A stretch of DNA of 59,423 bases, from assembly GCA_022710935.1 (NCBI GenBank), contig JAKLFY010000040.1:1-59423 (forward strand). Direction: 5' to 3'. This DNA is from Verrucomicrobiota bacterium (GTDB lineage: Bacteria; Verrucomicrobiota; Verrucomicrobiia; Limisphaerales; J093). Positions 4,003-12,187 of this stretch are shown here, piece after piece. Each line of letters opens with the position of its first letter. Position 1 is the first letter of the stretch. A model generated the notes under the pieces. The model did no database searches, had not been told where the DNA came from, and saw nothing but the letters and a program-made list of their open reading frames with translations. A program made the position numbers and the translations under genes.

Positions 4003-4060
4003 TGCTGCTGAAGTGGTGCCCCGGCTAGGACTCGAACCTAGGACCAATTGATTAAGAGTC
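4003..4060. repeat. attL: Left attachment site (displaced 3' part of tRNA-Lys)
   Basis: 58 bases identical to 12130-12187, which lie inside and just past the 3' end of the tRNA-Lys gene. They cover the anticodon loop, variable region, T arm, acceptor 3' strand and CCA. The copy lacks the 5' half of the tRNA and is therefore the displaced fragment. The integrase gene begins 95 bases further on. Confidence 0.93.
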
Positions 4061-4154
4061 TGTTGCTTACGGGTTTTATCAGGTTGCATGATACTTTGCC
4101 GAATTGCGCAAGAAACCTTGTTTTGCTTAGGAAATATGCGAATTTGGCCACAGC

Positions 4155-5525
4155 ATGACACAACCAAGCAAAACCGCACCAAACGCAGAAAGTGGCCAAG
4201 AAGTGGCCAAGATTTTTCCTTCTGTCTCCCGGTTCGCCGCCGCGGTTTGGGAAAGAAAGATCACCCGCCCGACCTACACCGCCGCCGGCAAGAAGCGGCA
4301 AGTTGAAGAATGGCACGCGCGGATTCAATACGGTGGGAAGCGGAGGTGGGTTCCACTTGGTTCAAATTGCAGGCGGACCGCCGCCCGCCGCGCCGCGGAC
4401 TTCTGGCAACACCTTGTCCAATCGGGATGGGATGAAGCCCTGGCCAAGTTTTGCCCGGACCGCGCCACCGCCGACAAAGAGCCGACAATCGGCGCCCTAA
4501 TCGAAGCCGCGACAACCGCGGGCGCCGCTAAGGGCATTTCACCAAAGACGCTCCGAGGCTACGCCGTGTCCCTTCGTTGGATTGCCGCGCGTGTGTTTGG
4601 CGTCCGCGACACCGCCTCGAAATTCGACTATGCGACCGGCGGGCATGGGCAATGGCAGGCGCGAATCGACAACATTCGGTTGGACCGTCTGACCGGCGCC
4701 AAGGTCCAAGCGGCGCTTGACCGCCACATTGCCGAGGCCGCAGACAACCCGATTGCCGAGCGCAAGGCGCGCGTTTCCGCCGCGAGCCTGTTACGCCAAG
4801 CCAAAGCCCTTTTCAGCCCGCGCCTTGAACTGCCCTTTGCGAACCTGCCCCAAGTGTTCACGAAGGCCACCCCGACCGGCCCCCGGCCCGTGAAGATCGA
4901 GGGCGTTGGCAAGCCGCCCCGGTACAAGTCCACAATTGACGCCGCCTCGCTTCTACGGGACGGCAAAGCCGAGCTTGCCACGCAAGACCCTGAGGCATGG
5001 AAAGCCCTTTTGCTTGCCCTTGGCGCCGGCTTGCGGAAATCGGAAATCGACAATCTGACTTGGCCGCAAATCGACGTTCACAAGAACCTGATTCGAGTTG
5101 AAACAACCGCGACTTTCTCGCCCAAGAGCGACGATTCCGAGGGCGAGGTTTTTGTTGACGCCGGATTGATCCGCGAACTCGAGAGCTTCCGCGACAAGGC
5201 CACCGGGCTTTTCGTGATTGAAAGCGCCAAGCCGCCCCGCCCGAAGTCACCCGTCCCTTACTACCGCGGCGAAGTCGTTTATGACCGCCTCGCCGGCTGG
5301 CTTCGCATGAAGGGCATCTTGACGCACAAACCGATTCACGCGTTGCGCCGTGAATTTGGCTCGATTGTGTGCGCGTCCGCCGACGTTCACACGGCGAGCC
5401 GACAACTGCGCCACGCGGACATTGCCGTAACCTCGGCTTACTACCTTGACGGGCGAAAGCGCGCTGCCCCGCCCGTTGGCGCCATGCTTGGAACCGCAAC
5501 CGCCACCACCGCCGCCACGAAATGA
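4155..5525 (+). CDS. int: Tyrosine recombinase (satellite integrase)
   Basis: Integrase of 456 residues that would recombine the tRNA-Lys site. Residues 1-85 include an arm-binding-like region (TYTAAGKKRQVEEWHARIQY) and 120-240 a core-binding SAM-like domain. The catalytic domain shows GAGLRKSEIDNLTW with the first Arg near residue 295, HALRREFG (HxxR) near 395, LRHADI with the second His, and the nucleophile Tyr429 or Tyr430 in TSAYYLD. It lies 95 bases from the left attachment repeat, where an integrase is expected. Repeats of GTGGCCAAGAA overlap its first codons (4190-4212) and recur at the far end, so Int may repress its own gene when bound there. Start at 4155 is the first ATG; a later start is possible. 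Confidence 0.93.
   Translation: MTQPSKTAPNAESGQEVAKIFPSVSRFAAAVWERKITRPTYTAAGKKRQVEEWHARIQYGGKRRWVPLGSNCRRTAARRAADFWQHLVQSGWDEALAKFCPDRATADKEPTIGALIEAATTAGAAKGISPKTLRGYAVSLRWIAARVFGVRDTASKFDYATGGHGQWQARIDNIRLDRLTGAKVQAALDRHIAEAADNPIAERKARVSAASLLRQAKALFSPRLELPFANLPQVFTKATPTGPRPVKIEGVGKPPRYKSTIDAASLLRDGKAELATQDPEAWKALLLALGAGLRKSEIDNLTWPQIDVHKNLIRVETTATFSPKSDDSEGEVFVDAGLIRELESFRDKATGLFVIESAKPPRPKSPVPYYRGEVVYDRLAGWLRMKGILTHKPIHALRREFGSIVCASADVHTASRQLRHADIAVTSAYYLDGRKRAAPPVGAMLGTATATTAATK
4190..4212. promoter_or_regulatory. Candidate integrase arm-type sites, left
   Basis: Two tandem copies of AAGTGGCCAAG lie within the first codons of the integrase gene. The 23-bp block is repeated exactly at 12069-12091, with a variant at 12027-12050, close to the other attachment site. 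Paired direct repeats near both ends are what integrase arm sites look like. Confidence 0.6.
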
Positions 5526-6109
5526 ACACCGACCCGACCGTTTCCGAACTAGCCGCCCTGGCCGCGACGCTGAACGCCGCCGGACGAATGACACCGGACG
5601 CCGCCGCCGAGGCCGCCTTGGCCCACTGGCGCGCCGCAAACGTGCTTCTCTACACCGAGGCCGCCCGCGCGGAAGCGCAAACAAAGGAGCGCGAGGCGAC
5701 CGCCGCCGCCGAGGCGGACTTGCGCGACGCCCTGGCCGCGGTCCGCAAACCCGAGAGGTTTCCGGTCCCGCTGGACGCCGCGTTGCCCTGCTGGCTTCCG
5801 AAGCTAAAAGGCCGCACCGGCGAGGCCGCCGCCTTGTATCGTGCTTACCTGGCCGACAGTCTTACCGCCACCAAGTACCGCGGTTTGAAGGCCGCCACCA
5901 AAGACGAGGTTGCGCAACAGTACGCGCGCGACCGGCAATGGCCTTTCAACGAACAGCAGTTTGGAATGGTCGGGAGTTTGTTCCTGCAATGGTACACCCG
6001 CCGCCACGCCGCCGAGGTTGCCGCTGCCCGCGCCGCCGCTGGCCGCCGAGGCGGGCGACCGCGCAAGAAGGCGAAGGCGCGCACAAGTGGCAACCGAAAA
6101 AAACTTTGA
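5522..6109 (+). CDS. Unknown basic protein of the satellite, coupled to integrase
   Basis: A 195-residue protein that I do not recognise. Its ATG overlaps the integrase stop codon (ATGA), indicating translational coupling. Residues 1-75 are Ala/Glu-rich and probably helical. Residues 90-165 contain a more specific segment (GLKAATKDEVAQQYARDRQW, LFLQWYTRRH). The last 25 residues are very basic (GRRGGRPRKKAKARTSGNRK), suggesting nucleic-acid binding. By position it could be an accessory recombination or replication factor, but that is inference from context only. Confidence 0.65.
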   Translation: MNTDPTVSELAALAATLNAAGRMTPDAAAEAALAHWRAANVLLYTEAARAEAQTKEREATAAAEADLRDALAAVRKPERFPVPLDAALPCWLPKLKGRTGEAAALYRAYLADSLTATKYRGLKAATKDEVAQQYARDRQWPFNEQQFGMVGSLFLQWYTRRHAAEVAAARAAAGRRGGRPRKKAKARTSGNRKKL

Positions 6110-6149
6110 AAAACTTCTTGGACTGACCCGCAACCGCTAGAAACCGTCG

Positions 6150-6244
6150 TTTGCTTTCCCGCCGGCGAGCATTTGCTTTCCGGCGGTTTCGTTTTGCTTT
6201 CCGCCCGCCCCGTTTTGCTTTTCCAAGGCCGCCGTTTGCTTTCC
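6150..6244. repeat. Five 21-22 bp iterons, candidate replication origin
   Basis: The core TTTGCTTTCC (one copy with an extra T) occurs at 6150, 6172, 6193, 6214 and 6235, spaced 22, 21, 21 and 21 bases, about two helical turns, so all copies face the same side of the helix. The array lies in the only large gap of the satellite, just upstream of the HTH and primase-helicase genes. Phased iterons next to a replication gene are typical of plasmid and satellite origins. Confidence 0.72.
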
Positions 6245-10769: not shown

Positions 10770-12000
10770 AATGGGCCGGTCCGTTCTATCGGCCCGACTC
10801 GCGAACGTGCGTTGTAGGGCAAGCCAGAGGCCTTCTTTTCCCGACCGGCCCGCCGAAACGGCGGTTTTCGACCGTCCGGCGCCAGAAACACCGCGCCGCG
10901 CCCGCGGACAAAACGCCGCACAAGGCCACCTAGACGCCCTGGCCCGCGCCCGTGGACGGTCCGCACCGCTGACACCCGGCCCGCCTCGAAGGGCGCACCC
11001 CGAGGCCCTGGCGCGCGCCCGTGGCCACCCTAGCAAGGTCAACGAGAGTATGGCCCGAGGTTGACGCCGAGGCCCGAGGCGCTGCCCGCCACCGCAACCG
11101 TTGGCCACCCGCCCGCCGGACGTGGCAACCGTTCGCGTCCCGGGGCGAAGAAACCGGCGGTCCGCCTCGAAACCGAAGGCCGCCGTGGCCCGGCGGACGC
11201 AACGCCCGACGCGAAGGCGCCGGCCCCCGAGACCGCCGCCGACGGAAGGAAGGCCCCGACCGTTGCCCGAGGCCCCGACTGGCCGGCGAGGCGATCCGCC
11301 CCGGCGATCACGCAAGACCGCGCGAGGCCCTGACCCCGAGACCCTCGCCCCGCCGGATGAAGGCCCGACCCCGAGGCCCCCGGCGATCATGGCCGGCGCG
11401 GCGCCACCCGTCCCGACGCCGAGGCCGGACGCCCGACCGGCCCCGAGAGGAAGGCGCCTTCCTGGCCCCAAGGCGATCCGCGCCCCGACCGGCAAGACCG
11501 GCCCCGAGACACCCCGAAGCGAGACCCGACCGGCGGGAAGGCGATCCGCCACAAGCCCCCGCCTTCGCGCCCAATTGACACGAGACGCACCGAAAGCCCC
11601 GCCGCCACCCTGGACACCCCGAGGCCGATCCGCCCCGCCGAGGCCCCGACCGCGAGGGCGACCCCCAGGCGGACCCGACGCCCCGGACCGGCGCCGCCCT
11701 GGCGCTTCGAGGCCCGGCCCGACCGCCGAGGCGATCACCCGAGGCCTTGGCCCGACCCCGAGGCCGCCGGCGATCATGGCCGGTTGGCGATCCGCCGCGA
11801 AGGCCGACCCTGGCCCGAGGCCCGACCGACGGGAAGGCGGTCCGCGACGGTAACGCCCGGCGCCCGTCGTTGTGACCCTGGCCAGCGAGGCGATCACCGG
11901 ACCGCGAGGCTGTGACTCCCGACCGGACGCCGGCGAAGTGGCAAAGACACCCTGGCTGGCGAGGCCCGCCGCTTCTCATTTTCACCCGGACTTGTGGCCA
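10770..12000. other. GC-rich repetitive tail of the satellite, no credible gene
   Basis: About 1.2 kb of extreme GC DNA built from short motifs such as CCCCGAGGCC, GAGGCGATCCGCC and GGCGATCATGGCCGG. A 33-base segment at 11364-11396 returns at 11751-11783 with one mismatch. Long open frames exist on both strands at once, but they encode only Pro/Arg/Gly low-complexity sequence, as expected when stop codons are rare. It could be a structured RNA, packaging or replication region, or decaying repeats. Confidence 0.6.
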
Positions 12001-12026
12001 AGGGCGGCGGATTTGCACCCTGAAAG

Positions 12027-12091
12027 ACTGGCCAAGAAGTGGCCAAGAAGCCCGACCGCCGCCGCGACAAGTGGCCAAGAAGTGGCCAAGA
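12027..12091. promoter_or_regulatory. Candidate integrase arm-type sites, right
   Basis: GTGGCCAAGAAGTGGCCAAG occurs at 12069-12091 as an exact match to 4190-4212, and as a close variant at 12027-12050. The pairs sit 40-100 bases inside the right attachment site, mirroring the left end. Confidence 0.6.
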
Positions 12092-12129
12092 CGCGCTTGG
12101 GATTGTCGGTCGGATTCTTCGTAACCCCT

Positions 12130-12187
12130 TGCTGCTGAAGTGGTGCCCCGGCTAGGACTCGAACCTAGGACCAATTGATTAAGAGTC
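12130..12187. repeat. attR: Right attachment site within the intact tRNA-Lys gene
   Basis: Identical to 4003-4060. Here the repeat completes a full tRNA gene, so the element brought in the 3' part and kept the tRNA functional, as tRNA-integrating elements usually do. Confidence 0.93.

Follow-up and report, generated by a model that had tools for sequence, protein, structure and literature searches.

The window analysed here, the whole stretch of 59,423 nucleotides, is contig C195 of a genome bin (7.5 Mb, 259 contigs, 95.7% complete) from an uncultured member of the Verrucomicrobiota. Inside a tRNA gene it carries an island of approximately 8 kb, at positions 4003–12187, with a gene set that resembles that of phage-inducible chromosomal islands (PICIs). 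The initial annotation had delimited this island by a 58-bp repeat of a tRNA 3' half, and these ends were correct. The repeat is exact, its two copies lie 8127 bp apart, and it can be extended to 85 nt at 89% identity. The target is tRNA-Lys(CTT), the only tRNA in the window, and attR represents its 3' half. The repeats show that the island was inserted into the 3' half of this gene and that the tRNA was preserved. Att repeats and an integrase of its own make the island a bounded integrated element, as is generally expected of a phage satellite. Copies of AGTGGCCAAGA, all in one orientation, start at 4191 and 4202 on the left and at 11937, 12027, 12038, 12070, and 12081 on the right. With at most one mismatch, the motif has 8 matches in the window (0.8 expected), 7 of them in the island ends, and these clusters are natural candidates for the arm sites that the integrase would use beside the att cores.

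All genes of the island are on the + strand, in the order int, orf195, HTH, primase-helicase, orfB, orf46, orfC, and terS (Table 1). Family matches agree with the integrase, the excisionase-type helix-turn-helix (HTH) protein, and the primase-helicase that had been annotated at the start, and four conserved open reading frames (orf195, orfB, orf46, and orfC) can be added from comparison with relatives. The integrase is 53% identical to that of L122, an island in the same tRNA of another genus, and homologues of the HTH_17 protein are found in L122, L125, and L127. The primase-helicase, whose start was corrected to a GTG at 6565, has a zinc-finger/Toprim N-terminus followed by a P4-family D5/DUF5906 helicase. 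PADLOC matches on the HTH and primase genes were set aside, as they appear to reflect shared domains and not defence systems. An iteron-like TTTGCTTTCC array lies between orf195 and the HTH gene and may serve as an origin or as an operator for the HTH protein; no array of this kind was found in control blocks of the window. Among the island proteins scanned against family libraries, there was no match above noise to any virion, TerL (terminase large subunit), relaxase, or conjugation family, in agreement with the initial annotation of an island free of virion and transfer genes.

Table 1. Features of the window island and related verrucomicrobial islands
Feature	Position	Strand	Support or remark
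attL, copy of tRNA-Lys 3' half	4003..4060		58-bp exact repeat
int, tyrosine recombinase, 456 aa	4155..5525	+	PF00589 4.5e-9; phrog_1 6.2e-24
Two tandem AGTGGCCAAGA sites, left	4191..4212	+	putative integrase arm sites
orf195	5522..6109	+	overlaps int stop; conserved in L127 (57%), L125 (37%)
Five TTTGCTTTCC repeats, iteron-like array	6150..6244	+	21-22 bp spacing
HTH_17 protein, AlpA/excisionase type, 69 aa	6348..6557	+	PF12728 3.6e-8; phrog_66 9e-6
Primase-helicase, 770 aa, GTG start	6565..8877	+	phrog_6088 2.5e-81; TIGR01613 1.9e-31; PF19263 1e-13
orfB, 125 aa	8870..9247	+	C-terminal half like gene after L125 primase (L125 11408-11797; by eye)
Perfect inverted repeat TCTCGGACGTTTCGGACG, 18 bp	8922-8939 / 9034-9051
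orf46, small basic protein	9313..9453	+	conserved in L051, L127
orfC, 87 aa	9450..9713	+	conserved in L051, L127; weakly in L122
terS, terminase small subunit, 337 aa	9756..10769	+	N-terminal winged HTH and helical region
GC-rich tail (about 75%), apparently non-coding	10770..12020	+	dense in one-strand CCGAGG
Fifth, degenerate AGTGGCCAAGA-type site, right	11937-11947
Four AGTGGCCAAGA-type sites, right	12027..12091	+	putative integrase arm sites
attR, within intact tRNA-Lys gene	12130..12187		58-bp exact repeat, second copy
tRNA-Lys(CTT), integration target, kept intact	12141..12216	-	ARAGORN; Rfam RF00005 73.4 bits
Island L051			tRNA-Met; 8.7 kb; sister species, same genus as window
Island L042			tRNA-Thr; 12.4 kb including an IS66-like insertion
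Island L127			tRNA-Arg; 5.7 kb; second island of sister species
Island L122			tRNA-Lys, same tRNA as window; 8.3 kb; another genus
Island L083			tRNA-Pro; 9.5 kb; TerS island, other integrase lineage
Island L085			beside tRNA-Thr; TerS island, other integrase lineage

Between terS and attR lies a tail of 1.25 kb. It appears to be non-coding, as it matches no family and has none of the periodicity of a reading frame. It has 35 distinct 10-mers in common with the tail of L127 (mononucleotide-shuffle mean 4.8, maximum 17) and is a candidate packaging or other cis region. Within the island (4061–12129), one strand has 40 copies of CCGAGG and the other has a single copy, 8 times the expectation from host genes, and CCGAGG/CCCGAG words are strongly enriched on this single strand. 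The strand bias is common to L051 and L127 and absent from L122 and L042. A role of CCGAGG as a host Chi-like site is unsupported, since the word is neither enriched nor strand-biased in host genes. A CTTTCCGCTTT motif is present upstream of terS in the window and in L051, weakly above chance.

Identity of the terminase small subunit

The assignment of the protein at 9756–10769 as terminase small subunit (TerS) draws mainly on relatives. The homologue in L051 is 41% identical and matches phrog_57 at 2.9e-6; orf46 and orfC are also present there. A satellite TerS profile, built from the window, L051, and L042 proteins, identified eight further genomes in the class. Five of its matches (L078–L082) directly adjoin a TerL gene whose product has GpA_ATPase and GpA_nuclease domains, and in most of them genes resembling those for portal, protease, and capsid come next. 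As a single query in phmmer, the window protein retrieves the prophage TerS of L080 (6.9e-11) and L078 (1.4e-8), and against a prophage TerS profile it is matched with a probability of 98 and an E of 2e-13. In the PDB, the satellite profile matches mainly terminase small subunits, among them the gpNu1 domain of lambda (1j9i; best E 7.6e-4). Two matches were discarded, namely L084, which is transposase-like (phrog_5749), and a second match on C124, which is weak (E 0.016) and surrounded by ordinary host genes.

Further evidence comes from L127. This island shares orthologous int, orf195, HTH, orf46, and orfC with the window island, has a different helicase (an AAA helicase), and carries after orf46-orfC a different protein, a full-length Nu1-type TerS (phrog_57 E 1.7e-13). 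Because the backbone is kept and a Nu1-type TerS stands at this place, the position after orf46-orfC is a TerS slot whose occupants can be exchanged. The islands L122 and L141 have phrog_57 TerS proteins of their own (4.6e-9 and 2.9e-14). The initial call of a terS-like HTH protein has therefore been borne out by prophage neighbours, PDB matches, and the L127 slot, and on sequence evidence the identification as terminase small subunit stands.

Related islands in the Verrucomicrobiota

Islands of the same architecture occupy tRNA-Lys, Met, Arg, and Thr genes, and TerS islands with other integrase lineages are found at sites including tRNA-Pro. L051, L042, L127, L122, and L083 are each delimited by repeats anchored in the tRNA. 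In addition, seven primase-related islands of 6.3–7.7 kb, delimited in this way too, are located at tRNA-Met, Arg, Cys, Tyr, Thr, Met, and Leu; these are relatives by primase and are not counted as TerS islands. The closest primase relative found, in L125 (E 2e-302), belongs to the same family as the window genome and has the order int-orf195-HTH-primase. Including the window's own genome in each count, primase relatives occur in 29/286 genomes of the class, integrase relatives in 40/293 genomes of the order, and matches to the TerS profile in 4/320 genomes of the order. A second integrase relative in the window's genome (C12) has no evident TerS or primase within the 7.5 kb examined. Together, the related islands suggest that the window island is one of a modular verrucomicrobial satellite family and not a single oddity.

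Several relatives carry additional genes. L122 encodes a possible HK97-type major capsid protein (MCP; L122:9087-9908, + strand) with an hhalign probability of 87.5 and an E of 3.6e-6 against verrucomicrobial prophage MCPs; it has no Pfam or PHROG match, and hhalign is its sole support. A coiled-coil gene (L122:8497-9075) lies ahead of it, and the island has TerS, with no TerL or portal. At L051:9998-11255 lie genes for a cement-like protein (phrog_673 2.6e-9) and for a head maturation protease of the ClpP type (PF00574 4e-14), and this island has no evident MCP, portal, or TerL. Tape-measure-like proteins are encoded in two TerS-bearing islands, at L141:5554-6900 (phrog_2276 2.6e-6) and at L083:11543-13324 (by eye only). 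In L051 (9031-9360), L042 (17000-17299), and L122 (8103-8477), the gene after terS is a small HTH gene resembling sigma region 4; no such gene was found in the window island. In L042, the IS66-like insertion (L042:10546-12926) splits the primase region.

An empty tRNA-Lys site was sought in sister genomes, as the initial annotation had proposed. The tRNA-Lys(CTT) locus of the sister species G135 was recognised by its 5' flank, which together with the tRNA is 76% identical over 290 bp. Only one copy of the tRNA is present there, and no integrase lies behind it. The evidence for an unoccupied site is good and not perfect, because synteny with the window is lacking on the 3' side. The bin that contains the window also has an 8.5-kb prophage fragment (L090, on G000:C81) that carries a TerL of the GpA type and a TerS-like gene of its own, and judging by these genes this prophage is possibly the right type of helper for the island. 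L090 also holds a ParB-like/DNA methyltransferase gene.

Satellite reading and its rivals

A TerL profile from six verrucomicrobial prophages and a portal profile from five, which recover their source genes at 1e-200 or better, matched none of the islands (0/15); TerL of other families was not separately profiled. A gene for redirecting packaging is thus found without the remaining packaging and particle genes. Since the island has TerS and neither a packaging motor nor particle genes, it very probably spreads by hijacking the particles of another phage. Because TerS occurs without TerL in a tRNA-bounded island with an int/HTH/primase core that recurs in relatives, and because the site is vacant in the sister species, we consider it likely that 4003–12187 is an integrated, TerS-redirecting, PICI-like phage satellite.

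Some points weigh against this reading, and the scope of the TerL profile is one of them. The window TerS alone has a weak phrog_57 match (E 0.05), and the call had stood on thin evidence before the relatives were examined. Its C-terminal half is unusual, and a single-sequence AlphaFold model is poor (predicted local distance difference test, pLDDT, of 50). No relatives of the primase, TerS, or the TerS profile were found among IMG/VR viral contigs, and a scan of genome contigs yielded the sister locus alone. The helper candidate is a fragment and could be contamination of the metagenome-assembled genome (4.3%), and phage-dependent induction, excision, and packaging are inferred from sequence.

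The proposed mode of action is as follows. The helper would be a lambda-like phage, either temperate or infecting, whose terminase is of the GpA type, and a helper signal would turn on the HTH regulator of the island. Integrase and the HTH factor would then excise the island as a circle, and the primase-helicase would replicate it into a packageable form, possibly from the iteron array. The island TerS would take the place of the helper TerS in the terminase and direct the helper TerL to the island packaging site, which may lie in the GC-rich tail. Island DNA would exit in helper particles and integrate into the tRNA-Lys of the next host.

A decayed prophage, in which structural genes were lost and int, HTH, primase, and terS were kept by chance, could also account for the gene content, as P4-type primases and TerS are also found in phages and the class has prophages with this type of TerS. 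However, every gene is intact and all point the same way, the two att repeats match exactly, and independent islands, found in different tRNAs of different genera, have similar gene orders and lack TerL and portal. Moreover, L127, with its backbone and different Nu1-type TerS, looks like selection on the slot, and we regard decay as quite improbable. An integrative mobilisable element or integrated plasmid with a conjugative helper, in which the HTH protein at 9756–10769 would be a regulator, is more improbable still. Such elements also occupy tRNA genes, and 455 plasmid records contain similar Toprim/P4 primases. However, none of these reaches 80% coverage of the primase, and the matches that cover at least 80% of its length are all phage records (11). 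No relaxase or conjugation family was found among the scanned proteins, and the relatives hold head-protease, cement, and tape-measure-like genes and no transfer genes. The TerS evidence also argues against this explanation. The initial annotation had named clustering of primase and TerS with plasmid replication genes, or conjugation genes inside the same repeats in a sister genome, as outcomes contrary to a satellite. Neither was seen; TerS groups with prophage TerS, and L122, in the same tRNA-Lys, is without conjugation genes.

It is also conceivable, and in our view unlikely, that the island is a satellite packaged by the whole terminase of its helper at a cos/pac-like site, similar to P4-like satellites or phage-inducible chromosomal minimalist islands (PICMIs), and that the TerS homologue acts to interfere with this helper. 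The combination of PF00589, PF12728, and PF19263 is the PICMI search signature (PMC10803314), the primase is of the P4 type, and the GC-rich tail might act as a site for packaging. However, the closest bounded islands keep TerS even though its sequence is exchanged, and packaging specificity fits this best.

Comparison with known satellites and significance

The definition of PICIs combines att sites and exclusive genes with induction that depends on a phage, interference, and packaging (PMC6092414). The window island resembles SaPI and Gram-negative PICIs (PMC6092414) in its size of about 8 kb, att direct repeats, left-end int, AlpA-like HTH, primase-rep, terS, rightward transcription, and lack of TerL and virion genes. 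The Gram-negative order of int, AlpA, and pri-rep, transcribed rightward, is found as int, orf195, HTH, and primase on the + strand. The island differs from PICIs in its host phylum, an HTH_17 protein in place of Phage_AlpA, a Toprim/DUF5906 primase, a TerS of the Nu1/GpA-phage type, and the GC-rich tail. The comparison is by gene set alone, and the matches are to generic int, HTH, primase, and TerS families. The initial proposal of a PICI-like satellite in the Verrucomicrobiota is supported by the comparative evidence, where 'PICI-like' describes how the island probably works and not its lineage. P4-like satellites have a P4-family primase-helicase, an AlpA/Vis-type regulator, and a tRNA-type integration site, all of which the island shares; unlike them, it carries TerS, and no Sid/Psu/Delta-type genes were found.

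PICMIs are located next to fis, are without terS, and are known in Vibrionaceae (PMC10803314). The island shares with them a very compact core of integrase, HTH_17, and DUF5906 primase, but lies in tRNA-Lys with terS and so falls outside the PICMI definition. Capsid-forming PICIs (cf-PICIs) have their own TerL, portal, and complete head set (PMC10690885). Some relatives of the island have protease, cement, or MCP-like head genes, as cf-PICIs and the Streptomyces MulchRoom/MiniFlayer satellites do (PMC10690885), but the islands are without TerL and portal. Of the MCP, portal, protease, TerS, and TerL that define cf-PICIs, the window island has TerS only. We tentatively propose, with the case for it somewhat less than even, that the verrucomicrobial islands form a satellite lineage of their own that stands between PICIs and cf-PICIs. 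Its members would share an int-HTH backbone, in many cases together with orf195, combine it with replication and TerS modules that can be exchanged, and lack portal and TerL. Some would also bring single morphogenesis genes, namely the MCP-like and coiled-coil genes of L122, the cement and ClpP-type protease genes of L051, and the tape-measure-like genes of L083 and L141.

Phage satellites have been described mainly in Pseudomonadota and Bacillota, and some in Actinomycetota and Cyanobacteria. The initial annotation knew of none well described in Verrucomicrobiota, and a text search of the open PMC literature (subscription journals and bioRxiv lay outside its scope) likewise found no description. 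A family of satellites with TerS, present in several genera, would mean that genes move through this largely uncultured phylum by helper hijacking too, and would provide a marker-based way to find such satellites elsewhere. It would also supply relatives that have part of a capsid set and are informative on the connection between PICIs and capsid-forming PICIs. If the intermediate lineage is real, its members would rebuild the helper particle with substituted parts.

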